From Xestospongia bergquistia (lineage: Eukaryota; Porifera; Demospongiae; Haplosclerida; Petrosiidae): a DNA stretch of 64,000 nt. The position numbers were made by a program, and so were the translations under genes. How positions within the stretch are numbered: position 1 is the first letter of the stretch; each line of letters starts with the position of its first letter. Positions 9,844-59,561 of the stretch are shown here, one piece after another. The notes beneath the pieces are model-generated. The model was not told where the DNA came from and made no database searches. It worked only from the letters and a program-made list of their open reading frames with translations. Location: NCBI GenBank assembly GCA_963965975.1, contig OZ014418.1, positions 880,501 to 944,500 on the forward strand, in the 5' to 3' direction.

Positions 9844-11738
9844 ATGATGCACAAAAAGATGAGCAGTTTACTAAAGTATTACTTGCTCATTATCCTTTTA
9901 CTGATCCTACTATTCAGTCTAATGATTGCGTGGGAAGTACTAAGATTGGCCAACTCTTGTCACTATGATCTGAATATAGGTTGCAGCAATCCAGTGCAGC
10001 AGACTGTTAATGCAAATCCATCAGATGTACATCAATCAATAAGAACTGATGAGGAGACTAATATAACCATTATGTTATTGGAGAAGTTTTCCAGAGTAAC
10101 TGACAGACCACCTCTTGTCCGATTTGATTGGTATTCACAGAAAAGAACACCAGTCCATATAGGGTAAGTTGGTAGTACTGGTGCAATCAGATTAACAGAT
10201 CTATTCTAGTTATGCAGGGCGAACTGCCATGGCAATCCTTGGGCCTTATGGATTTCAGGAGACACATTCTGATGACTGGGTAAGTAGAAATGCATCAACA
10301 ATCGTGCAATGTTCTATAATATAACTTGCTGGTTTGTAAATTTCAAGGATTTACTGTGGACAATGATACCTCAATGGAGTTATCTTCACACAGCTTTAAC
10401 ACCTGGTCTTCCTCGTCCTTGGCAAGTCCACAACCACTGTCTTTCCTTACATGATGGTAAAGGTATCTCTGGTAATAAAGTATCGCAGTGGCAGTTCTTC
10501 AAATGCATGATGACCAAATATGGTAGTCAACAATTTGATTACATGCCAGAGACGCTAGTTTTACCAAGGTATATGCAGTTAATGGGGCATCAAAAATATA
10601 ACATGTTTTATAATGTTATTTTAAAAAAAATTTTTTAGGGATTTATAATTTTATTTTATTTATTTATTATTTTTTAGGGATAAGGAACTACTTAAAACAG
10701 CACTAGATTTAGATGGCTCTGTGAAACCTTGGATTTTAAAACCTTCCACGGGAAAACGAGCAATGGGCGTCAAGATTCTCTCACATAGTTATCATATCCC
10801 ATCTGTAATTGACCAACATTATGTTGTACAACGTTACATAAATAATCCACTACTAATTAATGGAAGGAAATTTCATATCAGACTCTATTTATTGATAACT
10901 AGCCTTCAGCCTCTCAGAGCTCTTCTACATAGAGAAGGATTGGTTTTGTTTGCCAGTTCTAACTACACAAATAAATTAGATTCATTCCAAAATCTTGGGA
11001 TACATTTAACAAATGCAGCTGTTGCTGACAGACAGGGTAAAGAGAGCAATAGTAATTCTATGCTCCTGTCAGAACTTTGGGATCTATTGAAACATGATCA
11101 TCACTTGAATGTATCTAGCATTTGGGAGAAGATCAAGTTAGTCTTAACTAAAGTGGTTTCCAGCCAGGGTTGCCCAGAAGAGCTAGAAATACGAACTCCA
11201 GGAACCTGTTTTGAACTAATAGGAGTTGATGTAATGTTAGATTCTGAACTCAAAGTCTTCTTACTGGAATGCAACAATGGACCAGAATTATATACTGACA
11301 AAATAGAGACCAGGAAGGTATGCTTCGTACTACTTGTAAATGTTTTAAATTCAATACATTTACAGGCAAATGATCAGGCTCACAAAGCTGTTCTCCAAGA
11401 TATGATACCGTTAGTAACAGCTGTAAGACCTAAGATCACAAATAAAGATATTAAAACATTTCACAGAAGGTTAGCATATATGTTGGTTTCTTCCTTGTTA
11501 TTATTGTCAGACTTCTTGTAGACTTCAATATTATATAGTTGGTCAAGGAAAGCAATATTGTGGAAAGCAGTTAGCTGGATTTGGAGGGAATTGTATCAGA
11601 GATGAAGACATCATGAACTTATGGCATTTTCATTATGAGGTTTGTTATATAGTGCCAACTTTTTTTATTATATTAACAACTCAGGAAACCAATAAAGGAA
11701 GATTTGACAGATTATACCTAGATTCAATTTTATCATAG
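9844..11738 (+). CDS. TTL-domain ATP-grasp ligase with N-terminal signal anchor
   Basis: The protein starts [13 protein letters not shown] and runs at once into a leucine/isoleucine-rich membrane segment (about residues 11-31). An in-frame stop lies just upstream, so this start is firm. The rest is a tubulin-tyrosine-ligase (TTL/TTLL) domain: the ATP-grasp lysine region [19 protein letters not shown], the hallmark [25 protein letters not shown], and the metal-binding segment [24 protein letters not shown]. It ends with a short tail ([15 protein letters not shown]). TTL enzymes ligate amino acids to tubulin or other proteins in the cytosol. The membrane anchor is unusual, and basic residues before it predict a luminal catalytic domain. 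The gene is divergent from the RhoGEF gene (160 bp) and convergent with Dicer copy 1 (59 bp between stop codons). The exact TTLL subclass is not clear. Confidence 0.85.
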
Positions 11739-11797
11739 AAAATTTATAAAATTATATCAAGACTATTTTTTTGTGTATGTCATATAAAATTTTTAAT

Positions 11798-14700
11798 CTA
11801 CAAATTAAAATTTGATTCTGTTTTTAGTTCTTTGATTTTTTCAATAGCTCTTTTTGCTGCACCTACCTTAGCAGCTTTGTATGTCTTAGCAACACATGTC
11901 ACATGAATTCCTTTGTCAACAACTTTTACTGAACATCTGTGTGACCTAGTTTGAGATGGACTATACAATGAAAAAATATAAATTATCACTTTAAAAGAAA
12001 TATACATTTATTATGTTATATAATAATTGTGTATTGATTTTAAACCTTTTTTCAATTATTACTGAAGAAGCAAGCTCAAGTAGTTTTTTAATTGGATGGA
12101 CTGGGACCCCTTCATCTCTAAATTTATCTAAAAAACAGATAAGATATTGATCCATTAAAATCTTCTAGGATTAAGGTACATCTACACATGTAGTTAGTTA
12201 TATTAAGGTGTACAATATGTTCACTTAATTAACATACCTATTAGAGGTTTGAAGAAGGGATAGAATATATTCCACACTACCTCTAAACTCATTCCACTAT
12301 CCAAAAATAGAGCACCTGCCAGAGACTCCAATACATCTCCTAAGGCTTTAGGAGGTTCCAATTCCTCAACATCTTCACAATCATTAGGTACAGCTTCTGT
12401 TTCTGACATATTCTGAGATGATGTTAATTCACTTTGATTTGTATCCTGGATGTATAAATAATAAAATAATAATAATATGACATTTCCATTTATAGGAACA
12501 AGCTTACATCAGAATTTTCTTGCGATTGGAAACGACAATAAATTTCAGATTTTGACTCTCCAGGTTTTGGCTTGGACACTCGTTCCAACGAGTCCACAAA
12601 TTCTGTTATCTGCTTGAAGAGACCTGGAGAAAGTTGCAGCAGATAAGTATGCAGTCCTAACTCTTTGACAGCAATTTCTGCAAATGTGATATTGTTGACT
12701 AAAGCAGATCTCATTTCTGTGATCTGACCCGGAGTGTAGTTAGGAAATTGACAATAAATAAAACAAGTTATTAAATAATCTAAAACTGCATCGCCAAGAA
12801 ACTCTAAACGTTGATAACTATCAGTGAGATGATTCTTTTGAAAAGATGGATGAGTTAAAGCTTGAAGGAGAAGTGCTGGATCTTTAAATGTCCAATTTAT
12901 TTTCTCACACAATGGAGTATAATTACAACGAGTCGAAGTTGGCAGACACATAAAAATCATTTTTTTGATGACTGCATCAGCATTCTCAACTGGATGAAGA
13001 AGAGCAGGAGGTGGTACTTGGCATTGTGTGTGAAAGACAAATGAAGAGTTCTGTATTAGTAGCGGATTCTTTATTGTCGCAGCTGCATCGTTTGAAAGCT
13101 CAATGCTCATAAAACTCTCCTGAGAAGCTGATCTTAATCTAACTTCAACGTCCATTTGGTCATCATCATCCATAGAGATCAGTCTAGCAGGGCTGCTAAA
13201 CTTCATACCCAACCAACGTAGCCATTTAAATCCAGCTTCAATCCCCCCGGCTATGATGTAGGCCCCTAGCATAGCTTCAATACCATCAGCAACATCTTTA
13301 TCAGTAGCTCTGTGATAATAATAACATCTGATACCTTCCGACAATTCTTGAGGAGCTACTGTAGATGGTCCTGCTCCATTTGAAAGAGAGAAGCAAGGTG
13401 GAATCCAATTGGAATGAGGATCAAACTCCTTTGAAAAAAGTCTTCCAGGAATATCCTTTTGTTTTGAGAGATAGCTCAGATTGAAATTGCTAATTCGACG
13501 TTCTCGAGCTGAATTGAGTTTACCTTCATGGTCGTTGCTACGACAACAAAACAGGTCTACAGTTGTGGACAATTTAAGGAAGGAGTCTCCAAGAGATTCA
13601 AGACGTTCTAGATCAATGGAGTCATTAGCAGATTTTGTTGTCAACGACTGTAACAATAAACCATTGTCAGGTTTTCTTAGAGTTCCATTCATCACAGCTG
13701 ATTGTTCTAACTGAGGCATAATGTTAGGATCAACTGGTTCTCCTGTACTCCAGTAAAACAAAGAGTTGAGGTTTCTGACGGCTAGATCACTTTGACCTGC
13801 ACTTGATAACTCTGACTGAGTTGAATACTCATAGCTGGAGGTACATCCAATGGCTGTCTCCTTGGAGATAAGATCAGAGAGTTCATTGATAACAAGCAGA
13901 GCCTCAATACGATAAATAATGGTTGGAACACAGCGACATAACTTCCAAAATGAAGCTGACAATGGATATATTTGACATAGCTCAGGAAATAATTTAATTT
14001 CGTTTCCTTTTAGTCTTTCTTGTTCTGATTCTTGATCCTTGAAACGAGATGATACGAGTTTCAGACTGTTCTTTCCCATCGAGACTGGTTTACATGTCAG
14101 AGATGGCTGAGTGTAATCTTGAATTTCATAGTTGTATTTGTGCAGAAAATATTGAGCATACGTTATTGATTGATCAGAAGGAAAGTTAGTAAGAGGAGTC
14201 TCATTGTGTTCAATATTAGTGACCTCATACAGCTGATACTGACCATGACGAAATTCTTCAGTGTATTTTTTCCTGACTAATGTTCCAATAAAGTTAGTCC
14301 AATCACAAGGCCAAGTAGGTACTTGTAATTCTCCACTGCCAGCTGCTAGAACTCTTTGCACTATCTCATTATCTAAGTAATATACAAGAGGATTAGTACC
14401 CATTACAATGGATACTGGTACGATGAGATATTCTCGATGAATGGGATCAGAATTACTGACATCTGTTGAGAACTCAATATTAAGTGGTATTTTCTTGAAT
14501 AAGGTAGAATGAAATTCTTCATATACTTGTATTTCATGAGGAACCAATGCTAGGTTAGTTAGTGGTACTAATGAAACAGATACTTCAGAACGTCCAATGT
14601 AGAGAGAAAATGGCGGTATCTAAATACAAAAAATGACAAAACCATATTTAGAGTCAAAGCCATGCAGCTGCTCATATATCACCCTGCCCATGTACTTACT

Positions 14701-17700
14701 ATACAATATGTAGTACATAGAGAGGGTAATGCTCCATAAATGTACTACATGTAGTATGTGGGTAGAGTGATGTTTCATACATGTATTAAATGTACTAATA
14801 TGTATCCTGTATAACACAACCTACAATGACATGTATTACTTGACAATGTGCAACAAACTATCTGATAAGAGGTAACCACAATTTAATTACCTCCATTCTG
14901 AGAATATATATTTAATTGGTTAAATATACTAAAGAAATTGTTTATGTAAATCTAATTGTATGAAGATAAGAGAGACTGGCACACACCTTGGTAAATGGGA
15001 TGGGTTTATTGGTAAGGATACCCAGTGTCTGGTATGGTTGATCAGAATTGTCTTGAGATGGATATAGTTTTCCATTTAGTTTCATAATGAAACCATATAG
15101 GTGATTGTCTCCTGGTACTGGTTTACTGTTGTGTAAACATTTGGCAACCTAAATGGACAGATGGATGGATGGATGAATTAATGGACAGATGGATGAATGG
15201 ATGATACTTACTTCATTTCTATAATACATCACTTTACGCTGTGTTCCAGCATGTGTCTTTTTCTTTGCTGTCATTTTCACTTCATCCTCCTCGTCTGAGT
15301 CTACATCTTTGTGTGATATTGGTTTCAAGTGATCATCTAATTCTCCTTCAATATGTAATTGCTTAATAGCCTCAAGAGCAGCTGCCTTCTTTGCCAGGTT
15401 CACTCGAGGAAGAGGAGGACCCTTGAATAATGAAAGTAGATTTAATATGAAGTATTATATTTAGTTGTAATATTAACAAACATAACAAATATATAATTTG
15501 CTTTTTTTTTTTTAAATCCAAACCATTAATGGTTTTACTAACATCTCCATTATCAGTGTTCAGATCATACTAGTATTATATATATATAACACAATCTTAG
15601 TTGTTTTAAGGACTCACTGCTTTCAGTTCCTTTACGGGACAATTCATGGGTAGTTGAATCTTAACAGCAAACAATATGGGATACCACATCTGATCAAGCT
15701 GGCATATGCCTCCACCCACGTTCTCATCTTCAAAAACTGGAGCAAGTATAGTGAAACGATCGTGTGGTAGTTTTTGACAGTATCTAATGAAAAGTGAATA
15801 GTCAAGAATTTACTAATGGTAGCTCTCCTAGTTCACTGTGGTAATTATTAGTATTCTAGTGAACATCAATACTTACCAAGATGACTACCATTAACAAATC
15901 TATTGACTTTTACATGTGGCTTTTATCCTTGCACTTATTAAAGTGACCTCATACCTGTGTAAAAGAGAGAGGCTTCCATCGATGGTCATTTGTGGACCAT
16001 CTACTCCATACGGTTGATAGGGTTCAATTAGATGCTTAAGACGTTTCTCCACCTCATCCTCTCCTGGGACTTCACGACCATGACAAATTTCCTCTAGCTT
16101 TTTCTCCAGCTGGAAGTAACAATCTAAATCACTTCGACGGTCAGCATAGTCTTCTCTGTTGACAAGAAGAAGATAACGTGAGTTTTTGGCTCTTGCTCTG
16201 CCTTTTGATTGAACGTGGGATTGAAATGTCTTTGGGAAGTCATAACGTACCACTAAGTTACATTTAGGTATGTCTAGACCTTCTTCGACAACGCTTGTAG
16301 CAACAAGAAGGTTTAGTTGACCAGTTCGAAATTTTCTTAGTACTTCCTGTTGTTTCTTGACATTCATGTTAGCTCCTTGTTCTAAAATGCGACCCCCTCG
16401 TCCAGTATGACCAACGATAAAAGAACAATTTAAATGACCTAGACAACCATCATGATGTTGCTGAATTAACCGAGCAAGACATACAGCTGTGCTTCTCCTT
16501 TCCACAAAGACAATACTGCATACTTTGTCTGGAGAGTTTGACAAGCAGGGATTAGTGTCTGCTAAAATGTGCAGCAAACTTGTAAACTTTGGACTGTGGT
16601 CATCACCCTCATTCTTAAGAGCTTTTTTACACTCCACAGCAAATATATCAAGATTTAAAAGAACCATTTGAGTTAGTTTACTCTCCCAGTTATTTGGATG
16701 GTTTTCTAGAATATCTTCAATTTCTATTTTCATGAGTTCCACTGCCTCAATAGCACTTGTTATACTAATGTTATCTAATGCATAGACACACTCTTCAAGA
16801 TAGCCTCTGAGTTTTACATCAACGCTATCTTTGGACTTGGATTTCTGGTGACATTCTAGAAACTCCACTATTTTATCCAAAATTGGTTTCAAAATGCCTG
16901 TTTGTGAATCCAGAGAGCGAGATGAATAACACACTAAAGTCTCATCAGGATTTGTTGCATATTTTGCAACTTCAGCTAAATCACCAGCTGTTTCAGTGCG
17001 ACAGTGTAATGTTTCCTCTAAATCTTTTAGTTTCCTTTCCAGCTGCTGTGGTTTGCATTTCCCACTGATTATTGAGGCTGATAGTCCTAAAATTCTGGGG
17101 CGATTGTTTTCAGGACATTTGGGATAGAACTTCATGATTTGAACGTAAGGATCATTCTTGACAGCGTGGTGACACTCATCAAAAATTATTAAATTTATCC
17201 GCGAGAGATTAACATAACTATGAGTGAGAATATCTAGGAAGATCTGTCTAGTCATAACAAGAATGTTGTTTTGATCAAGTTCATTATTCCACTTTGCTTG
17301 ATTCCAACTGTCAACGCCCATTTCTCCATAATAATGGCCAACTTTAAGAGGTGTATGTGCTCTGATGTAGTCCGCCTGCTGTGTTACCAAAGGAACTGTC
17401 AAAAGAAGAGACATTTGTAGTAATGTAAATTCTTTGTGACTACTACAGGAGTAGTATGTACAACATTAACAAGTACTTTGCCTATAGCTATCTAATTTAA
17501 TATATAAAAAAGCTATTATGGGCCTACCTGTGTTAACGAGAAACATTGTTCTCTTTGCATTCAAGTCTTCTTTGTATGAGGATATAATGGAGTAAGAGAG
17601 TTGCTTGATCAACATAACTGCTATGAACGTCTTCCCTGCTCCAGTGCCTAATAGCACTATCGTGTCACCATCTAAGGCTGCATCTAACAGCTCAAGCTGA

Positions 17701-17744
17701 TAAGGACGAGCCTCTGTTAACTCTGTATCACTTTTCTCTTCCAT
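11798..17744 (-). CDS. Dicer, copy 1 (full length, 1586 aa)
   Basis: Nine exons (17528-17744, 15955-17395, 15618-15783, 15212-15421, 14987-15148, 12508-14619, 12238-12445, 12046-12127, 11798-11960) join in phase to 1586 residues. Dicer cuts double-stranded RNA into siRNAs and miRNAs. Domains in order: a RIG-I-like helicase (GTGAGKT 33-39, DECH 145-148, [33 protein letters not shown]); the Dicer dimerisation fold (DUF283) about 553-680; platform and PAZ about 760-980 ([17 protein letters not shown]); RNase IIIa (ERLESLGD, acids E1073 and D1077, then D1177 and E1180); RNase IIIb (RLEFLGD, E1338 and D1342, then D1473 and E1476); and a C-terminal dsRBD. All catalytic acids are present. The start codon is 75 bp from that of ALKBH6 on the other strand. 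It is a paralogue of the Dicer at 19375. Confidence 0.96.
15810..15897. mobile_element. MITE-like inverted-repeat element in Dicer copy 1 intron 2
   Basis: An 88-bp stretch is bounded by imperfect inverted ends, TTACTAATGGTAG (15810-15822) and CTACCATTAACAA (15885-15897), matching at 11 of 13 positions. Its interior resembles, in one orientation or the other, the 53-bp tandem repeat in CCDC88 intron 1 (shared strings such as CTAGTGAACATCA and TACTTACCA). This suggests a small dispersed non-autonomous element. No flanking target duplication was confirmed. Confidence 0.5.
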
Positions 17745-17819
17745 AGCTGCAGCAGCGCCTAATCCAATCCGGGGCCGGTCTTCCCCTCAATTCTGCAAAG
17801 TAATGAATTCAATTTACTA
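17745..17819. promoter_or_regulatory. Shared divergent promoter of Dicer copy 1 and ALKBH6
   Basis: Only 75 bp lie between the two start codons, so both 5' UTRs and the core promoter must be very compact or overlap the genes. It contains a CCAAT string (17764-17768) and a GC-rich patch (CCGGGGCCGG), unusual in this AT-rich window. No TATA box is seen. Promoter function is inferred from position. Confidence 0.5.
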
Positions 17820-19122
<1,303 letters not shown>

Positions 19123-19374
19123 TATGACTGAATATAATTGTAATAAATGTATTACTAGTAAAAGATGTTATAAGTGTGAATTTTGTAGTGTTTTAGAATA
19201 ATCACTACTGGCTTACTATAGTGACTGATTTCAGGGAATTCCCTGATTTTTTTTAATGGGGAAAGCTTGGGGAATTTTGCTTTTTCTTGCACAACATGAA
19301 GCTTTATAAGATAGTCAGCATGATTTAAAAGGAAACTTATTCAAAGAAGAGCAATATCGGAATTGTTAACTGTA

Positions 19375-22300
19375 ATGGCTGAGGGTGTAACTTCTGCAGC
19401 TGTGGTTCAAGGAGGAGGAGGAGTTATGGAAGAAGAGAAGAAAGAGGTCAAACAAGGTCGTCCTTACCAAGTAGAGCTAGTTGAATATGCTCTGCGAGAA
19501 AATACAATTGTTAGTCTTGGTACTGGAGCTGGTAAGACGTTTGTGGCCGTCATGTTGATACGTGAGATGAGTCATATGACATCAGAAAAGTTTACCGAAG
19601 AGACTGGACAAAGAACAATATTTCTAGCTCATACTGGTAAGTGAAATACAGCCTGTGTGTGTGTTAACTAGATGGACAGAATATGTCCATTCATTTATCT
19701 GTCCATCCATCAAAATATTCATCCATCAATTAGTTTCGCAAAGCTAGCCCCTCCCCCTTGCAGTATGTGGCTGGCTATGTGAGGCTATCTGTCTATCTAT
19801 TCAACAATTTAACTATTAACTTTTACATTAACAGTACCATTGGTCAAACAACAGGCCAATTACATCAAAGAAAATACAAACTTAAAAGTATCCGATTTTT
19901 GCGGTGATGCTAAAAATGTCGACAGCTGGTCTAAGGAGACATGGTATGATCACTTTAATAATAATAACGTCCTCGTTTTTAGTCGAGCTATTTTTCTTGA
20001 CTTACTTCTTAAAGCTTTCATTAAACCTCGTCAACTTAATCTTATCATCTTTGATGAATGTCACCATGCAACAAAAAATGACCCCTTTGTCCAAATCATG
20101 AAAGTTATCAAAGATGCACCCGAAGAGCAGCGACCACGTATCCTTGGTCTCTCGGCTTCTCTCTTGGGAAAAAAGGTAAAACCTGGAGAACTTGAAAAGG
20201 GAGTGAGAGCACTGGAAACCGTTCTAATGAGCACTGCTCGTACCACTCGAGATCTCTCAGATATGGTCAAGTATGCCACCAATCCTGATGAGAAGATATG
20301 CAACTTCAATTCTAGAGTAGATGAGGTTGCTGCATCTCTTAAATGCATTATTGATCCAACTCTTGATTTCTTGCGCACAAAAGTGGACAAGAGACAAGTC
20401 AAAAGTCCAATTGAAGAGACGGCAAGGAACCTGTTAGATGATCTTCAATCTATTCTTGTTGATCTGGGGCCTGCAAGTGCAGCTGGATTTGTAAGCCAAG
20501 CTATTAGAGAGTTAAAGAATACTATGAAATTTAGTAAACCAGAAGACCAATGGGACAACTTGTTAGGTTGTTTGGTGTTAAGCCAACTTACCATCTTTGA
20601 GACCAAATCACGCGAGTTTAAGCATCAATACGGCAAGCTACAAGACAGCAATAAAGTCCATGCTATGTTTCTAGAGATTGCTGACATGGCAGTCAGAAGT
20701 GGAGAAATGGATATTGCAGAAGATACTAGTTCTGAATTGAAATCAAAGAAGGAGGTTAAAACTTTACGAGGGATCATCTTTGTCGAGAGGAGACACGTTG
20801 CATCATGTTTGTCTAAATTGATTCAAGAGAAGAGCCGTAGTGATCCTGATTTACAGCATATATCATGTGATTATGTCGTGGGTCATAATGTTGGTCAAAA
20901 TTCCACCATTTTGAAGAAAGAAGCCCGTATGAAGTCTAAGGAGCAGGAAAGAGTCTTGTGTAAATTTCGTAAAGGAAAGATCAATCTTCTGGTGGCTACT
21001 AGTGTCATTGAAGAAGGAGTTGATGTCCCAAAGTGTAATTTAGTGATAAGATTTGATATGCCTCAAAATTTTCGTTCGTATGCTCAGTCTAAAGGTCGTG
21101 CCCGAGATAAACCCTCGACCTTTCTCCTTTTAATAGGAGACCATCAATTAAACAGTCTAATGGATATTGAGAACTATCATAATCTGGAGAAAGAGCTCAT
21201 TGTTCTTTGTCAAGAAGACAGAAAACTTCCTTCTGAGGAGGAGATACAAGCCAAAATGGCCGATAAGATACCTCCATATATGCCCTATGGACCCGAGGGT
21301 GCACGAGTAACAACTGGTAACAGCTTGACTCTCTTGCACAGGTACAGTCTAAAGTCAGAACATACTTTGTAATACAATGTTAACTCTAATAGGAAAAATA
21401 AAGTTTAACTTATTGAGTCTAATAATTGTAATTATAATTATAGTAATTGTCCCATCTACTATGTGGTAATGTAACTATCCCATCTACTATGTGCTTTGGT
21501 AGCTGTCCCATCTACTATGTCGTAATGTAACTATCACTTCTACCCTGTCCTAGTGTAATTGTTTCGTCTACTGTGTCTTAATGTAATTGTCCCATCTAGT
21601 ATGTCCTAGTGCAATTGTCCCATGTACTGTATCTAATATAATTGTCGTATTTACTGTGTCCTAGTGTAATTGTTTCGTCTACTGTGTCTTAATGTAATTG
21701 TCCTGTCTACTGTGTCCTATGGTAGCTTTCCCATCTACTGTGTCCTAACGTAACTATTTGAGGAGACTATTTTCTCTCCTAGGTATTGTCAACGGTTGCC
21801 TTGTGATGAGTTCACTGTTCTGGTGCCATCCTTTGAAGTAAGAAAAATACCTAAGGACAATCCTGGTAATCTTGGTAAGGTGATCTACACTGAGGATGAA
21901 GATGAAGACCCTAACTTCAACTATATCTGTTCTCTCTCCTTACCTTTTAACTGTCCCATTAAGAAGATTATTGAAGTGGGTTGAAGACAACAAGATGATT
22001 GATCACATTGTTCTTTCATTTCTCCCTCAGAGTCCTCCTATGGGTAGTAAACTACAGTCACACAGAGCAGCTGCAATATTTGCAATTGAAAAGCTGCATA
22101 AACTCAAAGAATTAGATGATATTTTCAAACCCACTCCATTACCAGATTCAGATGATGAAGATGTACGAGAGGAAAAGAAGATACCGTTGGCAGGTACAGA
22201 CAAAAGATCACAGCTTTACAAAAATGAAGTAAGATAAATTGATTTGTAATTATTAATAATATCATTTAATTAGGTTGCTACCGTATTGAGCAGCTGTTAT

Positions 22301-25300
22301 CCTCAAGAACAATCTCCTGACAATTTTTTATATGTGTTTGTTATAAGAGAGAAAGATAGCGGAATATTGTACCAGTCCCAGGTAGAAGTGGAATCTCCAA
22401 AAGCTCTTGGTATATTGTTAAAGAAACGTCTACCTCATTGGAAGGTAATGTGTGATATCATTGATCCATCTATTCATCAATCCGCTCACCCTTTCGTCCA
22501 TCCATTTATTTATTCATCCATCCATTCTTCTAGATACCTGAGTACTCTCTCTATGTGAAAGAACTCGGCATTAACAAAGAGTTAATAGTCACCCTTCAAC
22601 CATTTCCCATCACTGCAGAATTTGCATCAGAGGATCTCAGTGTTCTTCAATCTTGTCATATTTCTATGTTCTCAAATATACTCTGTGTACAGCCTCCTGA
22701 ATTAACCGCCAATTTTGAACACTCACAAAAGGATTACATCATTGTTCCTGTTACTATAAATAGAATGGATGGCAATGAAATAAAGGAGGTAGCCATTGAC
22801 TACAACATCGCAAGCGCAATCAACGACATATCGGAAATTCAAAAATTCCCAGATCCTCCTTATTCAGCAGAAAAATTTAAGAATTCTCTCATTAGTGTTC
22901 GTCATAGAGACTCTATTTCTCATTCTGGGTTACTGGAACTTTACAGACCGATGCTAGATCCTTCACTGTCTCCGCTCTCTCCTTTTCCTGATACAAAGTT
23001 TGCTAACTTTTTAGAGTACTACAACAATAAATACAACTATGAGTTGAAGGACTTAGAACAGCCTGGTTTGATTTGTACTCGAGTGAGTATGTCATTCTTG
23101 AAAGTCTTTACTTCTCGTTACACTCAAGATGTTCTCATAAGCCAGAAAAACATTCCAATTACCTTGTTTCCAGAATTGGTACAAATATATCCTCTCTCTG
23201 CTAGTTTTTGGAGACTACTTCAATGTTTACCTGCTTGTTTGTGGCGACTAGAGTCACTCGCTCTTGCTGAGGATTTTTCTGGTACAGTGATGTTGGAAAC
23301 TGGTATTGGTCACCTTCACTATGATACTGTATTGTTTACTGATACTGTTGTCAAGGGATACGTGGATGCTGGATTCGGTGATATCCCATCTAAAACATTT
23401 AAAGTGAAAGGTGATGTCATACCAGAGAGTATCAATGATATTCCGAGTCAACTAGATAACAGAGGGCCTGATAATGGTTTAATATTACAGGCTCTCACTC
23501 CCAAGGGGGCAAATGATTCAATTGATTTGGAACGGCTGGAGTCATTAGGAGACTCTCTTTTAAAGTTATGTACCTCCATTTATTTGTTTAACACTCGTAC
23601 TTTAGCTCACGAAGGTAAGCTATCAGAAGCTCGTGCCAGACGAGTCTCAAATGTCAATCTTTTCTGCCTTGCTAAGAAAAAGGGAATAGTTACAAAAATT
23701 TTGGCCAACGATTTTGTTATGGGTGGAGACAGCTCTAGTGGTTTTGATAGGATAAGATGGATTCCCCCGGGTTTTGTCATTGCAGGAGAAACCTTGCCTC
23801 AGAGTCCTAGTACTTTAGAGGAACGTTATCATTATCATCGGGTCACTGATAAAGGTGTGGCTGATGTCGCTGAAGCTCTCATAGGCGCCTATACTGTTGC
23901 AGGGGGTTTACAAGGGGGTATAGCTTTTATGAAATGGCTTGGGGTTAAATTTGATATGCCACCTGATATATTAAAGTCAACTGCTGAACCTTTTGAGATT
24001 GAAAACTCAAAAATGTCTCTCCTTTTTGTTAATTCTAGTGCAATTTTTAAATCATATTTTGGTGAGCCTAAGTCTCCCAGATTTATCCCAAAAAATGCTG
24101 ACGATATAGATCGTATGATATCACAAACAGCCAGAGTCCAACAAAGAATCCATTATCAATTCAAAAATCATCTTTTACTGATAGAAGCTTTGACACATCC
24201 ATCATACGCTCGTAACAATATCACTGATTGTTATCAGAGGCTAGAGTTTTTAGGAGATGCAATTTTAGACTATGTAGTGACCTGTCAAATTTATCAGTCA
24301 GATGCTTCCTCAACTCCAGGAGAGATCACTGAACTGCGTTCAGCTATTGTCTGTAATAAACGATTTGCTGAGCTGGCAGCGGAGCTAAACTTACATTGTA
24401 GCATGTTGCATAGCTCTCCTGATTTGTTTAAGAAGATGGGCAAGTATGCTCTAGCTCTGAAGGAGAGACAGTTAGGTGAGATTCAACTTGGACTGCAAAA
24501 TTTATATACCAATGAAGAAGACAATGTGAGTATATGTACCTAGTATGGATGAATGATTGATTGATGGATGAATGAAAGGATGGATGGATAGATCAATAGA
24601 GTAATGGATTGATAAATTTATTTCTTAGATTTCAGTGAGAGTGGATTCTTTGACTGGAGAAGACTTGGTTTGTGATGAAGATGACGTTGATGAAGATGAA
24701 GATAATGAGCTGTTGGACCCGCCCAAATGTCTTAGCGATGTATTTGAAGCCATAGTTGGTGCAGTATTTGTAGACAGTGGTATGAGCTTAGAGACTGTAT
24801 GGACGACCTTTGAACCTATCTTAAAACCATTACTAGGTATGTTGACTATAGTGTGTTCTATTCTACTTAGCCTCATACCCAGACCTTTGACAAACACCTA
24901 GGTACGAGGCTATGTTCGTCTACTATTCCATATATTTGATGTTTAACTAAAATGAATCTGATTGGTCAGTTCATGCTTTAGTGTTAGGGTGTGGTTTAAG
25001 TATATCTAACCAATCAAATTCATCTTAGATAAGTATCTATGGAATTACACATTCTATAGTTGACTATTTTTTTGTTTTATTAACAGAGAAATTTAAAGAT
25101 AATATTCCAGTTCCTGCAATTAAGGAATTATATGAGAAAATACCAACAGGATTGATTGTTAAGAGAGAAATGTATGTGTTTATAGTTTTATTATATTTAT
25201 ATCACTTGGTTTGTTTTATTTTTTAGTCTATATGGTCAAAAATGTCGATGTGTTATTGAAGTTAGAGGACAAAATATTAGAGCATGTGCTGATGCTATGT

Positions 25301-25362
25301 CTTATCGAAATGCTAAGAATGCAGCTGCCAAGAAAGTTCTAGCTCAACTTAATCAAAATTAA
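19375..25362 (+). CDS. Dicer, copy 2 (full length, 1583 aa)
   Basis: Nine exons (19375-19636, 19835-21341, 21783-21975, 22031-22228, 22274-22444, 22534-24525, 24629-24836, 25087-25171, 25227-25362) give 1583 residues. The intron phases (1,2,0,0,0,0,1,2) are identical to those of copy 1, and exon 7 is 208 bp in both. Domains in order: helicase ([44 protein letters not shown]), dimerisation fold, platform/PAZ ([17 protein letters not shown]), RNase IIIa (ERLESLGD with E1113 and D1117, then the VADVAEA acids), RNase IIIb (RLEFLGDA and LSDVFEA) and dsRBD ([14 protein letters not shown]). All acids are kept. It differs from copy 1 by a glycine-rich N-terminal extension and by extensive divergence between and inside domains, so the duplication is old and both copies look functional. 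The start is the first ATG; upstream in-frame codons are non-ATG. Confidence 0.96.
21451..21757. repeat. 28-bp minisatellite, about 11 copies, in Dicer copy 2 intron 2
   Basis: Consensus roughly CCCATCTACTGTGTCC followed by TAATGTAATTGT. Ten units are 28 bp and one is 27 bp, ending a few bases before the polypyrimidine tract of intron 2. Units differ by point changes, and the pattern TTCGTCTACTGTGTC recurs in two units, suggesting higher-order duplication. It explains why this intron is much longer than its neighbours. Confidence 0.85.
24926..25044. mobile_element. MITE-like hairpin element in Dicer copy 2 intron 7
   Basis: Two arms of about 40 bp (24926-24969 and 25006-25044) are imperfect inverted repeats: the left holds AATGAATCTGATTGGTCAG and the right its near complement starting CTAACCAATCAAATTCAT. 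The loop is about 36 bp. The arrangement fits a small non-autonomous DNA transposon or a fold-back RNA inside the intron. No coding capacity. Confidence 0.5.
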
Positions 25363-25657
25363 AAATAGCGATAAATTTTTCATAATAATAATTATTAATA
25401 TAATTTTTTTCGATTAACGATTTTAATTAGTTAAAATTAATTATTGATGACCACACCCATGCTATCTGAGAGAAGAGAGGGTGAGTGTCTGCACTATATA
25501 TATTATAAATCCTTTCTTATAATAATGCTACATTTCTTAATTAATTTTAATATGTTAAAAATCTTTTTGTTGTAATAAAATTGAGTAAATTAATAGGCAA
25601 TAAAAGGGAAAAACTTAGTAAGACTGCTGTTGATGGGAAGTGTCACGTGTTTGTCAC

Positions 25658-29166: not shown

Positions 29167-31245
29167 TCATGTGGAACACACTTTACAAGATTGGCTTTCA
29201 ACAATTTTAACTTTCTGACAACTTTGATCTGAACTATACCCTCGTATAATTAACCCCTCTCCTGACCTCAACTGAAAGGAAGCTAAATTGATATTATTAC
29301 GATCAGGATAAGTTGAAACAACTAACTCAATGTTTGTAAGAGATAAATCGACACCAGTTGTGAGGTTTTTCTCAGAAAAGTTGATAGCAATGATGTAATT
29401 CTCTTTGTAATTCTGACTATCTGACTGATAACGCATATAAACTAGAATATCTTGTGTGGCATTCAAACATTGGTAGTCTCCTTCAAGGAAGGCTTGTTTA
29501 CTCCTCAAAGTTAGCAGTTGTTTATACAGGTGTAACATTGAGGAAGAGTTAGCCTTTTCCACCTCAACATTGTATAGAGAATAATTTGATGCCAGTGGTA
29601 ACCATGGCGATGCATCAGGAAATGTGAAGCCAGAGTTATTGCTCGTATTCCATTGCATTGGTGTTCTCTCTGCATCACGACCTTCATATTTATCTTTTCT
29701 CTCTGTTGAGGGGACATTCACATCAGTCATAAGAATCTCCTCACCATAATAAGTTATAGGCGTACCAGGAAGTGTTAAAAGAAGCATATTTAGAGCTCGT
29801 GCAAGATAGACACCAACTCTAGATGCAACCCTGGAGTTGTCATGGTTACCGAGAACCCAATTGGCAGTACTAACCGTGGGCATATTGTCCAACCATTTTT
29901 TGATGATACAATTTACAGAAATACCAGTCCAATTATGATTGCCCAATAGAAAAAAATTAAAGGGAAAAGTAAATTCATTACTACCGTTACCATAATATGA
30001 CATGACTTGATCAAGAGTGTCATAGATTTCACCTATCAAGATTTTCTCCTCTCTTGACTTGATGGAGTACTCATTTAATAGTTGACGCCACTCTTGACAT
30101 ATGGTATGTATTCCAGGATAGTTTGTAGTTAAGTTATGAATGAGAGAATTATAACAATAAGGATCACTGATATTGTCTGCTAAACACTCATTGCTTGGGA
30201 AATCAGGATTGCGGACCTCATCTCGCAATTGGGGATCTTCGAGAAGAAACTCAACAGCATCCACACGAAAACCATCTACTCCGATATCCAGCCAAAACTT
30301 TAAGACATTTTTCATAGCTTGTCGGACTTCAGGGTTTGAGTAATTGAGATCAGGTTGGAAGGAGGAGAATTGGTGAAGATACCATTGGTCCGTAAGTGGG
30401 TCATAACTCCAGGAGCTATTGCCAAACACACTGATCCAATTATTAGGGGGCTCGTCCTCGCTTAATCCATTGGCCCATATGTACCAGTTCCTTTTAGGAT
30501 TAATTTTGTTGCTACGACTTTCTATAAACCAGGGGTGTTCATCAGAGGTGTGGTTAGGGACAAAATCAAGGAGAAGATGGATACCGTTGTCATGGAGATC
30601 GTTTAAGAGCTCGATAAATTGTTGCATGGTACCGTATGTTTCATTTATTGCAGTGTAATTAGATATATCATAACCATTATCTTTTTGTGGTGACTCAAAT
30701 ATAGGATTTAACCATATTGCTTTGATACCCATATCTCTGAAGTAGTCCACACGACTACGAATTCCTTCAATGTCACCTATACCATCTCCATCACTGTCTT
30801 GAAATGATTGCGGGTAACATTGATAAATAACACTTTTACGCCACCAAGATTCATCTTCACCAGTTGCTATGACAACTAATGTAATTGCCACGGCAACCAA
30901 ACCAATAAGGACAACTGCAGTACCAATACCACAAATCCATCTCATCCATTTGTGAATTTTTTTTTGTGTTGGACGTTGTACATGATGTGATGATCGACGT
31001 CTTGGAACATTGATATCAACACTAGAACTTTTATCTTCAATTGAGAATGGGAAATCAGCCAATTTTTTCTTGTTTGGAGATCGTTGGTTGATTGTCAATG
31101 AAGCATTTGGTTTAGAAATAATTTTTGGTCTAGGTTCTTCAGAGTACGACAACGGGACTATTTCTGACTCTACTGTTTCTTGTTCTTCCTGCTCGACAGA
31201 CTGGACACGTAGTAATATAACTGTATCATCATCAATGTCAGCCAT
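29167..31245 (-). CDS. Intronless type II membrane GH13 protein (rBAT/maltase-like)
   Basis: A single exon of 692 residues: a cytoplasmic N-terminus, one membrane segment (about 104-128) and a large extracellular GH13 domain, the layout of SLC3A1 (rBAT). All four alpha-amylase motifs are intact: DFVPNH, GFRVDAVEF (arginine 327, nucleophile D329), LIGEIYD (acid/base E406) and LGNHDNSR (D469). The domain starts WWRKSVIYQCYPQSFQDSDG. rBAT and 4F2hc carry a cysteine between membrane and domain that bonds the transporter light chain; here that stretch (ATGEDESWW) has none. An anchored alpha-glucosidase is therefore at least as likely as a transporter heavy chain. The lack of introns is odd among intron-rich neighbours and may mean retrocopy origin. 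The start is the first ATG after non-ATG codons. A (CA)n run adjoins the stop codon. Confidence 0.9.
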   Translation of the reverse strand: MADIDDDTVILLRVQSVEQEEQETVESEIVPLSYSEEPRPKIISKPNASLTINQRSPNKKKLADFPFSIEDKSSSVDINVPRRRSSHHVQRPTQKKIHKWMRWICGIGTAVVLIGLVAVAITLVVIATGEDESWWRKSVIYQCYPQSFQDSDGDGIGDIEGIRSRVDYFRDMGIKAIWLNPIFESPQKDNGYDISNYTAINETYGTMQQFIELLNDLHDNGIHLLLDFVPNHTSDEHPWFIESRSNKINPKRNWYIWANGLSEDEPPNNWISVFGNSSWSYDPLTDQWYLHQFSSFQPDLNYSNPEVRQAMKNVLKFWLDIGVDGFRVDAVEFLLEDPQLRDEVRNPDFPSNECLADNISDPYCYNSLIHNLTTNYPGIHTICQEWRQLLNEYSIKSREEKILIGEIYDTLDQVMSYYGNGSNEFTFPFNFFLLGNHNWTGISVNCIIKKWLDNMPTVSTANWVLGNHDNSRVASRVGVYLARALNMLLLTLPGTPITYYGEEILMTDVNVPSTERKDKYEGRDAERTPMQWNTSNNSGFTFPDASPWLPLASNYSLYNVEVEKANSSSMLHLYKQLLTLRSKQAFLEGDYQCLNATQDILVYMRYQSDSQNYKENYIIAINFSEKNLTTGVDLSLTNIELVVSTYPDRNNINLASFQLRSGEGLIIRGYSSDQSCQKVKIVESQSCKVCST

Positions 31246-31324
31246 GATTAGAAAATACACCTACTGTTTGTCTTGTATTAAGACACACCATCAAAGGGGC
31301 GTGGCCACGTCGTCGCATGTACAC
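31246..31324. promoter_or_regulatory. Divergent promoter with GC/KLF-type box
   Basis: 79 bp lie between the start codons of the GH13 gene (minus) and EAPP (plus). GGGGCGTGGCC at 31296-31306 matches a Sp/KLF-type GC box, followed by CACGTCGTCG. This is the only clear GC-rich element here. Function is inferred from position. Confidence 0.45.
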
Positions 31325-46390: not shown

Positions 46391-49300
46391 GTATCAAAGT
46401 ACATTCGAACTTCTCCTGTCTCATCGGAGCTAGGTAGTAAGATCCTAAAGCAATATTTCCTCTTAGCTATGTCCAGATCAGGGATAGCCTCAGCTCCTAC
46501 AATATATTTACAGTAGCAGCTATATCTAGCATGAAGTCTATTACCTGTGAGGTTAAATCGTTGAAGGGGAGGTTCCCCCTGAGTATAAGAGTCTTCGTGT
46601 TTATAATACGCCAGTGAAGTCCCTTTGAGGAGGAAGAAATATCTCTTGGCTACTTTGAGTGTCATCCGAGTTCCTCTAACAATAAAGAATGAAAACATAC
46701 TGGTTAAAAATTGAAATAGTTAGATTACTTGCTAAATTTGCAGTAACCAGTCAACTGTAGAGCTCGACTCTCAGCCTAAGTGAACATAGTGTATTGTTGA
46801 TAATAAACATTGTTGACTTACAGCAGTAGGATCTTTAGTCTGTCCCAGTTCAATCTAAATAGGACATCAAATAGAATTATCTTTCCTTTTTACAAGCAAC
46901 ATACCTGTAGTTGATCTATAGCAGCATTGATATCAGTAATAGGCTCATCTACTGTTTGTGCTACAGGTCCTTGATGATATGCAGGAGAAGTCTGGGCTAA
47001 CTTCACTTGAAACTAGATGGATAGATGAATGGATGGACAGATAGATGGTTAAAAGAATGGACAAATGGATGGATTAGATAGACAGATAAACAAATGAATG
47101 GATGAATAGTTTTCTTACTTGGAGAGCAGCAAAAGTATATGCTTCTTCTTCAGTACAGTCAACCTCTTCAGTAAGTATGGACCATTTAGCTTGTGTATAT
47201 AACTGATTAATACGATTCTCATCAACCTATAAACAAATCTAGAATGCTATCCTGTACATGTAATAAACATACCCTCGGATCAATGTCCATAAAAGGATAA
47301 TACTTGAAACGTAAGTACAGGAGATCACCCTCATTAACATCTTGTTCAAATAGCGTCTTTGATGAGTCCAACCAACTAGACAAGACAACATTTAAATGTG
47401 AAGTGTGCTTTAAACATCAGTGCTCCATAATATCATAACATGTGTACTCAACTACTATTGGCTTTGAATGCATGTAGTCCTGATAGTGTGGGTTTAGGTT
47501 CCCAATAAAGGTATTAATAATTATATTAACACTAAATAATAAGTCCTTAACAAATTGTGCTAATCATTGTTCCTCCCATTGTTACTGGTCCATATATGTA
47601 CATACCAAATGTCATATGTAGTACAACACAACACTTATAATATCATTATATTTACTATAATTAGGTAAATTAATAATATAATCATTTACACTACCAGCAT
47701 TGACTATTATATAGTGTTTATGTCCTATGTTCAGTATTGACTATCAGTAAGTTCCTATGTCATAGTAATAGTAATACAATTAAGAATAACAGCTGTGTCT
47801 ATTATAATAAGTGCTCTTTATTCATCTTAGGTATTGTTTGTGGAACAGTTAGAGTAACCAACCTACAGATATAATTAGTTCATGTAGCAGCAGTTAATTT
47901 TAACAGACCACTTTGTGATACTTTTAAATTTTTATCTACTAGTTCACAAGGTAGCCATTAAAAATAGCGACCACAGAGATCTGTTCTTTGTCTACAAGGG
48001 ACTATTGTTAAACAAGTCAAAGGAAATGTGCTTCAGGACACATGTTATAAGACTTCAATCAACTACATTCCTCCAGGCTGTTTTCACATGTCAACAGTCA
48101 TTCATTATATACACTATATTTTGTTAATATATAACATAAACAGAGTTTTTGTTATGCAATTATAATGTTATGGTCACACTGAGACCTCTATACAATACAA
48201 CTCATACTAGTATGATCATCAAATTACACCCAAAACAGTAACCTTACTACGTTGTTATACAATACATGCACATATTGAGGGTTTGATACAATAGGGTGTA
48301 TTCAAACATAAGGAAACACTAACACCATTAATAGCTTCTTAATATTTCAGTAAGGAATTTACAGTAGAGGAGGTATTAGGTGTAGGTAGTTGTGTAGACA
48401 TAATATCTTACTCACAGGCCATTGATGAAGGCTTTCTCAATAGAAGAACGATTGAGCTTTTCAGAGAAGAAGCCACCATCGGGAGCCTCTCCAAGTTTGC
48501 GTATAATCACGGCACCACTGTCCATACCACCTCCAGGTAACATAGCATCAGGGTCTAGACTAGCTGGTAGCCGATTCTTATGACCAGGGCTACTTGGAGG
48601 AGTATTTGTATCGACACCTTCTAAAACTGGAGTTCCTTCTCGTGAGCCTCCCCTGGCTTTAGACCTGTGGTAGCCAGTTGCTTTCACATATCCTTCTCGA
48701 TCAAATGGCGATTTCATCAATGAGAGCTCTTCAGCATGACGAATATTGAAACTATCGCATATCTCCTTGACAACATAAAATGTCATCATGGCAAAGTGGA
48801 CTTTCATATAATAACGACCTTTGTCCGGGAGCTCAATGATCAAGTGTCTATGAACACTGGTGAACTCCAGGACCGCATTGGACATGATACCGTAGGCATA
48901 GAGAGTTTGTCTCACTTTGCTTAGCCATATTTGTTTGTCTGGCCACCATAAAGCATAGTTAGACCAGTCTCCTTCACCTAGAGAGAGAGAGGGAGGGAGA
49001 GGGAGAGATATATAATAGTACAGGTAGTTTGTTTTATTACAAACTGTTTACTTATAACATTTATAAAATATCTATCATTACTCTAAACATCTGTTATTAT
49101 AACAACACACTATTTAGTCTACTTTACTAGCTACCTCATAAAAACTCCATTACACACATACACATATCAAAATGACAAGCATAGACAACCAATAAGAATG
49201 GCACTACAAATAGTAGATAAGTTTAATAGTTATTAAAAGATGAAGCAAATAACTGTTGTCTAGGTAACAAGGGAAAACTCACATGGAATTAGAAATTTGT

Positions 49301-49753: not shown

Positions 49754-51993
49754 TTATATTTTGACAACAGCTCTCAACTGGTCCAATTTATCAAGATGAA
49801 TTTGCAAACATAGCCCGTCTACAGATTGATCAAGTGATTTAGTCAGTCCATCACTAACACCTAATTGATTCAAATGAGCTAGCAACATACAAGTCTGTAA
49901 GAAATGGAAAAAATACAAAATAATAAAATTATATTTAAATAATATATAATTTACCTGTTCATTAGTGGGCAGAAATTGTTCTAGTTTCCAATTTCGTGAT
50001 TCTTCAAAATTTATACCATGTTGTACATATCTCCAATGCACTGGACAATTAGCTAAGAGATAAAGACCCACGGAGATAGCGTAACCTCCCCAATTAGAAA
50101 CTCCAGCCATAATAACATAATCACTTGCAACACTGCAACCAAGAACAGCTCCATTCTTCATAACTTTCTCAACTTTCTCCTTTATCTTTCCTAAACCAAG
50201 TTCATTTCCTCGATCTCCAATCCCAATTGTCACTATGGAAGAACTGTTCTGTGCATTTAAGAATACTTCATCGACTGGTTCAAGATATTCTGTGACATCT
50301 CTTCCCTTAGAAGTATAATGGCAACCATCTTTAGCAAGTCCTGTCCTCTCGATTGCTACAAGGCAATCAAATCCTTCACATTTTGATAGGATCAAATCTT
50401 TGCAAGATAGAAACTTGATCTTTGATTTCAAAGCTCCTGAAGAAACAAGAATTTCAATAGAGGATTCTATTAATCCTTTATTTCGTTCTTCTGAGACAAT
50501 GACAACCTTCTTTCCAAGTGTTTGTAGAGCTTGTGCTATTGACAAAGCTCCTGGAGGACCGTCTGTCTCCTCCAGATTTTGGCAGCCGGCGTTACAAGGG
50601 AAACCAAAAATAACAGCTATAGAATGAGCATGAGATAGAGTGAGAACTGATTTCATGAAGTCATCTTCTTCTCGTAATTCTTGAACCCCACAACCTCCTG
50701 GATCATCAAGTATTATCTTCTCCAATTCTTTTAGTTGTTTCAGATCCCGACCAGAAGCAATTGATGCATAGTAGGGCATTTTTAATGGTGCTATATCTAC
50801 AACTAAAGGTACATCATCTTGAGAGGAGACTTCAATATAAGACGATTCAGTATGAAGGTCAGTAATAAACATCGAAGAAGGATAATGAGTGAAAGCTAAA
50901 TTAGGTCCTATAAGAAAAACCAGATATTAAAAAACTCTCTCATATAAAGGAAAATTGACATCCTCTATTATTTCAGGATACTAGTTCTAGTCAGTGATAA
51001 TGTACTTAATGCATTACTAAGGGAGGTCTATACTTGGATTATATCCAAGACCTTAAAGTGCTTGGTATAGAGAGAGCTTTTATACAATTAATACAATTCA
51101 AATAGTTAGTATGTTGTTATCAAAACTTCTTAATCCTTACCTAAAGCTTCTATTGCCTGTATTCCAGTGACTCCACAAGCCCAGAAAACCGAAACCTCAT
51201 CATTGTGCGTAAGTGTGCTATCACTAAAGAATGTTTTTTTCATATCATATATCCCAATCTTTCTTGGGTCTCCAATATGAATAGGAGCTCCATGGGACTT
51301 TGGGTAACTTGACGTAATAGTAACCACATCTTGAAGATGTTCCCTCTTAATAGGTCGCATTGAGACAATCATTTTTGTACCAGTAAATTTGTTATTTACA
51401 TCATAGCAACTAATGTCGGTCATGTAAACGCTTACAGCTGTTTTTTCTTCTACATTTCGAATATTTATTCCTGCATTAAGGAGAGCTTGTTCAAACGAGA
51501 AGCTACACCCCAAATAAAATGATACTTGTCCTGTCCAATCAAAACCAGATAAATCTAACATATCCTGCACTTGTCGACCATGACTGAAAATAACATATCG
51601 AGGGAGATCAGTTCTGCAGAACAAAAAAGTTATAAAATCAATTGATGTTGTTATTTGTCATTACCTAACATCTGAGTTTTCTGCCAGTGGAGGAGCTACT
51701 AATTCTCCTGGCAAGCTACGATAAAGAAGCGGTAAAGGTGCTGAATTCCTCTTGCAAAACTCCTCAAAGTTATCAGCATCATGAGCTGGTACCACGGCTA
51801 AATTAGCTTGAACGTAACCCAAGCAGAATCCACTTGTTGGGCCGTAATATTTATTGGCTTGAAAAAGTTCTCTTGCTTCCTTTGGACTCAAGGAAGACGC
51901 GTTTTCAGGTGCTAACAGAAATTTTGGCTGGTCTGCCATCAAGTTGCAATTATTTAGCTCCGCCCCACTAGAACCACACCCCTCAAATTCCAT
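49754..51993 (-). CDS. DGLUCY: D-glutamate cyclase (DGLUCY, DUF1445 + DUF4392)
   Basis: DGLUCY converts D-glutamate to 5-oxo-D-proline and is mitochondrial in mammals. The N-terminal half is a DUF1445 hydro-lyase-like domain (LSPKEARELFQANKYYGPTS, VIFSHGRQVQDMLDLSG, YLGCSFSFEQALLNAGINIR, VSVYMTDISCY, FWACGVTGIQAIEALG). The C-terminal half is the DUF4392 cyclase domain (VIFGFPCNAGCQNLEETDGP, SKCEGFDCLVAIERTG, VTIGIGDRGNELGLGKI, ASDYVIMAGVSNWGGYAISV). The first in-frame ATG is at 51993; a second at 51939 (MADQPKFLLAPENAS) is equally possible and lies nearer the start of similarity. The gene is divergent from CFAP36 and its stop codon lies 136 bp from the kindlin start codon on the same strand. 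Confidence 0.92.

Positions 51994-54727: not shown

Positions 54728-59561
<4,834 letters not shown>

Follow-up and report, generated by a model that had tools for sequence, protein, structure and literature searches.

Two Dicer genes in a single animal have been described before, among others in sponges. Two Dicers each are reported from the demosponges Stylissa carteri and Xestospongia testudinaria, with one Drosha per genome as in the genome studied here (PMC4752309), which agrees with the preliminary description of the present locus in its statement that several sponge Dicers are on record. The S. carteri models are truncated and the portion of that paper drawn on here does not give gene order, introns or the relation of the two copies for either species, the likeness being one of count. 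For the sponge Halichondria one Dicer transcript and no virus-derived small RNAs are recorded (PMC6085071, in part), which is evidence against sponges as a whole having an antiviral system built on two Dicers. In the fly, Dicer-1 and Dicer-2 both have the domains found in the two genes described below (DcrM and DcrP), but in Dicer-1 HRSSKE and EDCH replace helicase motifs I and II and in Dicer-2 Phe-Thr replaces the Tyr-Tyr pair of the PAZ domain, in both respects unlike DcrM and DcrP. Human DICER1 matches both copies in domains and in RNase III acids. AncD1D2, a laboratory reconstruction of the ancestral animal Dicer limited to the helicase–DUF283 region (PDB 9mw6; PMC10159624), scored 597 bits with DcrM, 579 with human Dicer, 506 with DcrP and 379 with Dcr-2.

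The window analysed is the whole 64-kb stretch at bases 880501-944500 of contig C8, in an assembly of 146.46 Mb in 21 contigs. The two Dicer genes lie in it head to head, with ALKBH6 as the single gene between them (positions are those of the window):

17744-11798, minus strand: DcrM, Dicer gene, nine coding exons, 1586 aa (spliced model, Pfam domains, catalytic residues)
17744-17528, 17395-15955, 15783-15618, 15421-15212, 15148-14987, minus strand: DcrM exons 1-5
14619-12508, 12445-12238, 12127-12046, 11960-11798, minus strand: DcrM exons 6-9
17745-17819, no strand: 75-bp spacer, bounded by the DcrM and ALKBH6 start codons, that may serve both genes as a divergent promoter
17820-19122, plus strand: ALKBH6, seven coding exons, 237 aa, between DcrM and DcrP (gene model, PF13532, PDB 7vjs)
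19375-25362, plus strand: DcrP, Dicer gene, nine coding exons, 1583 aa (spliced model, Pfam domains, catalytic residues)
19375-19636, 19835-21341, 21783-21975, 22031-22228, 22274-22444, plus strand: DcrP exons 1-5
22534-24525, 24629-24836, 25087-25171, 25227-25362, plus strand: DcrP exons 6-9

Both Dicer models were spliced at GT..AG junctions and their frames are unbroken, with no internal stop in either. They confirm the coordinates, exon counts, intron phases and lengths claimed in the preliminary description and, together with the Pfam domains and motifs, its picture of two complete Dicers flanking one gene. The phase series (1,2,0,0,0,0,1,2) is common to the two genes, all eight intron positions coincide to within 0-1 alignment columns and 625 of 1510 aligned residues (41.4%) are identical. 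The N-terminus of DcrP may be 17 aa shorter than modelled, because its second in-frame Met (residue 18) lies, as judged by eye, near the start of DcrM. Intron 2 of DcrP contains a 28-bp minisatellite of about 11 copies (21443-21757). When DNA repeats between the copies were sought as traces of the duplication outside the exons, nothing turned up but short stretches of conserved exon and simple sequence. This limit on inter-copy repeats, the 41% protein identity, introns unlike in length and sequence and the presence of one ALKBH6 make it exceedingly improbable that an assembly artefact or a haplotype duplication has given rise to the pair. We found no account of the head-to-head Dicer/ALKBH6 order in searches of openly licensed PMC papers.

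The ALKBH6 product matches PDB chain 7vjs (alkB homolog 6) with an E value of 1.2e-69. The gene runs parallel to DcrP, whose start lies 252 bp beyond its end, and is divergent from DcrM; it is possible that the 75-bp spacer acts as a shared promoter through which DcrM and ALKBH6 are co-regulated. On the other side of DcrM a tubulin-tyrosine-ligase-like gene (10649-11797) is directed at it, and AATAAA signals lie at 11691 (plus strand) and 11669 (minus strand). From the position of these signals the 3' ends may overlap slightly, and the two genes could possibly form a natural antisense pair. A candidate BRF1 gene is suggested, on our reading of the sequence, by a zinc-ribbon start near 25634. 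An Rfam scan of the 64-kb window gave no matches. The other genes noted in the window are:

2219: SDE2
29170-31260, minus strand: alpha-amylase-domain gene
48415-49047: kindlin, N-terminal part
49757-50926: D-glutamate cyclase-like gene
58106-58765: PP4R3

Pfam searches of both Dicer products recovered DEAD, Helicase_C, Dicer_dimer, platform, PAZ, two RNase III stretches and the Dicer dsRBD. Dicer_dimer (DUF283) scored 76.5 and 65.0 bits in the two copies against a cut-off of 23.7. The platform and PAZ of DcrM (49.7 and 28.9 bits) were over their curated cut-offs, and those of DcrP were slightly under (platform 24.9 bits, cut-off 26.5; PAZ 26.2 bits, cut-off 28.8), so that the PAZ of DcrP may be weaker than assumed. 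Alignment with human, fly and plant Dicers placed the RNase III acids E, D, D, E at all eight positions in each copy, and helicase motifs I, II, III, V and VI aligned in both with GTGAGKT, DECHH and KGRAR intact, which confirms the earlier claim of intact helicase motifs and RNase III acids. Drosha, taken as two RNase III domains without the Dicer helicase and PAZ, does not describe either gene, as both have these two domains. The best solved relatives are human Dicer chains (751 bits for DcrM, 686 bits for DcrP), fly Dicer-2 reaching 459 and 400 bits, respectively, and against these human scores the mutual phmmer score of DcrM and DcrP is 1031 bits. Both proteins are thus predicted to cleave double-stranded RNA as complete enzymes.

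The relation of the copies was examined in a tree of six proteins (DcrM, DcrP, human DICER1, fly Dcr-1, fly Dcr-2 and Arabidopsis DCL1; 1223 gap-free columns), a sample in which human and fly are the only other animals. It unites DcrM and DcrP as sisters, and sister to neither fly Dicer, with support of 100 under both LG+F+G4 and LG+C20+F+G4; the placement of Dicer-2 is poorly supported (52 and 61). Of nine topologies tested, the three that unite the pair were not rejected (AU 0.60, 0.49 and 0.08, the last with Dicer-2 beside the whole pair), and the six that separate it were rejected with AU no higher than 7e-6 and a loss of 41-52 log units. The alignment was also divided into four domain blocks, namely helicase+DUF283 (548 columns), platform-PAZ (284), RNase IIIa (146) and RNase IIIb+dsRBD (227). 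The best tree unites the copies in all four (support 96.7/96, 94/95, 94.8/93 and 83.6/78). AU falls below 0.05 for every one of the six separating topologies in the first three blocks and for four of the six in RNase IIIb+dsRBD, the other two not being rejected there (AU 0.20 each). A mosaic origin or gene conversion, also considered, left no sign in the four blocks, the weak point being these two topologies. Union of the copies in the whole tree and in each block supports a single whole-gene duplication that post-dates the split from fly and human Dicers, within the sampling of six proteins. The preliminary description had taken the copies for sister duplicates and had named a tree placing them in separate ancient animal clades as the finding that would speak against this; with human, fly and plant Dicers as the comparison no such tree was obtained, and the sister relation stands for six sequences that include no other early animal.

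Two other placements of the duplication bear on this result. According to the first the copies are orthologues of the early-animal Dicer-1 and Dicer-2 lines, still adjacent. The pair is old, and an early animal Dicer-1/Dicer-2 duplication is favoured in the part of PMC10159624 used here, but all eight introns are common to both copies, and we hold this origin to be very improbable. Topologies that place one copy beside Dicer-1 and the other beside Dicer-2 were rejected with AU below 1e-42 and a loss of 52 log units. According to the second the duplication is older than sponges and shared with other non-bilaterian animals. This would be compatible with our sequence set, which had no other non-bilaterian Dicer, and two deeply divergent Dicers are reported from sea anemones (PMC6085071, in part); against it, the shared introns suggest that the gene structure was already fixed when duplication occurred, and we regard it as rather unlikely.

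The duplication nevertheless appears to be old, an age supported by the 41% identity. Over common columns DcrM and DcrP are 43% identical, compared with 40% for DcrM and human and 38% for DcrP and human. Agreement between the two genes is 0.52, 0.64 and 0.37 at codon positions 1, 2 and 3, compared with 0.26, 0.28 and 0.29 expected from composition alone, and it follows that the protein is constrained and that third positions are near saturation. The earlier claim of an old duplication with both copies retained therefore holds up, the codon-position agreement pointing to selection on the protein. Branch lengths of the copies are 0.57 and 0.77 and the stem is 0.26; as a rough estimate that takes rates as even and places the entire stem after the split, the duplication would lie within the first third of the lineage's own history.

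Taking the evidence as a whole, we favour, with a probability of roughly 0.7, the explanation that DcrM and DcrP are retained sister paralogues and predicted complete enzymes, their activity, roles, promoter sharing and age being what we infer from the sequence. One gene already holding the eight introns would have duplicated, after its lineage had parted from that leading to fly and human Dicer, to give two full paralogues, both of which were kept. In each, a helicase with intact ATPase motifs would draw in long double-stranded RNA, the PAZ domain would take 3' overhangs and the two RNase III centres would cut the two strands. The head-to-head order is probably a neutral relic, except that the 75-bp spacer may allow DcrM and ALKBH6 to be regulated together.

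The preliminary description had proposed a division of labour between miRNA and antiviral siRNA, and for this we obtained no positive support, since neither copy has the hallmarks of fly Dicer-1 or Dicer-2. The degenerate helicase motifs of the Dicer-1 type are absent from both (GTGAGKT and DECHH intact), and topologies with either copy alone beside fly Dicer-2, of which there is one in the tree, were rejected. The PAZ aromatic pair, whose residues we presume to have a role, is Tyr-Phe in DcrM, Tyr-Tyr in DcrP and Phe-Thr in fly Dcr-2. At the positions of human Y936/R937 DcrM has Y/T and DcrP H/R, one human residue being kept per copy. We also compared six basic positions which we take to be the 5'-phosphate pocket of human DICER1: one residue is kept in each copy, five of the six are identical in neither, and at two further positions DcrP carries a basic residue of another kind. 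Fly Dicer-2 showed none of the six in the alignment, in a region that aligns poorly. Both Drosophila Dicers have a 5' pocket according to the part of PMC10328071 used here, and because the Dicer-2 result does not fit this and the alignment is poor, the comparison was given no weight. The parts in which DcrM and DcrP differ most are the dsRBD (25% identity), HEL2i (28%), PAZ (32%) and platform (33%), and these parts also rank high in divergence when DcrM is compared with human Dicer. In relative-rate tests with human, Dcr-1, Dcr-2 and DCL1 as outgroups (p = 0.054, 0.19, 0.06 and 0.38) DcrP was the faster copy with all four but never significantly. Only tentatively, then, might one see partial specialization, with DcrM as a conservative generalist for pre-miRNAs and endogenous double-stranded RNA and DcrP biased towards long double-stranded RNA and siRNA, in overlapping roles; the assignment is weak because the difference in rate is not significant. 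Possible to a similar, limited degree is that the copies are redundant or dosage copies that do the same work, retained because of dosage or because they serve different cell types or stages. The identical catalytic and motif residues retained in both, and again the absence of a significant rate difference, fit such redundancy, but 41% identity implies a long time for copies to remain fully redundant, and the PAZ and platform profile scores are unequal.

The genome was searched for further Dicer-type and silencing genes, the profile searches scoring the best candidates only, exon by exon. The RNase III profile gave seven matches, four in DcrM and DcrP, two at C11:4.343 Mb, in a gene that motif and frame reading would name Drosha-like, and one at C9:7.066 Mb, in what looks by frame reading like mitochondrial ribosomal protein mL44. 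All three Dicer_dimer matches fell in the DcrM and DcrP genes. With DcrM as query the 21 matches were to these two genes, then to C3, with single short matches on C5, C10 and C12. The best candidates of the RNase III, Dicer_dimer and DcrM searches, exon by exon, included no further Dicer gene of the 146 Mb genome, and of 289 pattern hits in a search for relatives in viral contigs none was confirmed. A RIG-I-like gene cluster lies at C3:1895751-1906825, with four C-terminal-domain matches within 10 kb and Dicer-type helicase matches. Six Argonaute-type loci were found (C1:16.08, 16.13 and 16.20 Mb, C10:5.95 Mb, C7:1.97 Mb and C9:1.45 Mb), which by sequence form one group of the C10 and three C1 loci, containing all three ArgoMid matches, and a second of the C7 and C9 loci that is presumably PIWI. 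A recent duplication accounts for two of the C1 loci, whose proteins are about 89% alike. The genome also has at least 47 homeodomain matches, seven of them within 40 kb (C13:145926-186068) in a group that resembles the NK cluster known from a sponge. This gene content agrees with the sponge origin assumed in the preliminary description but is no proof of it. One cellular RNA-dependent RNA polymerase (RdRP) was found in the genome, fused to an SF1-type helicase (AAA_11, AAA_12):

C14:4665311-4671331, minus strand: cellular RdRP, intronless frame of 2007 codons with the motif GSDLDGD; AAA_28, RdRP, AAA_11 and AAA_12 domains

The RdRP part matches PDB 7w82 (RNA-dependent RNA polymerase) at 6e-62 and 7eu0 (RNA-dependent RNA polymerase 2) at 1.4e-58. 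Its GC3 of 0.286 resembles that of the Dicers (0.294 and 0.318), which speaks against contamination. As far as the parts of these papers used here go, RdRP was not found in three sponges (PMC4752309), Amphimedon is without it (PMC6211395), and an RdRP with an AAA_12 domain is described from amphioxus, with sponges unmentioned (PMC6396948). One could imagine a two-Dicer silencing system built independently of that of insects, in which DcrM would serve Drosha products and DcrP, with its intact helicase and weaker PAZ, would dice double-stranded RNA synthesized by the RdRP-helicase fusion, so that a sponge would have siRNAs amplified by RdRP; we consider this speculative and improbable.

Two complete sister Dicers that parted long ago, share their introns and show no plain sign of specialization offer a good test bed for how Dicer copies diverge. 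If broader sampling upholds the tree, the multiple Dicers of early animals need not trace to one Dicer-1/Dicer-2 split. The co-occurrence in one genome of Drosha, an RdRP, RIG-I-like genes and six Argonaute-type loci makes the antiviral means of such animals a testable question.
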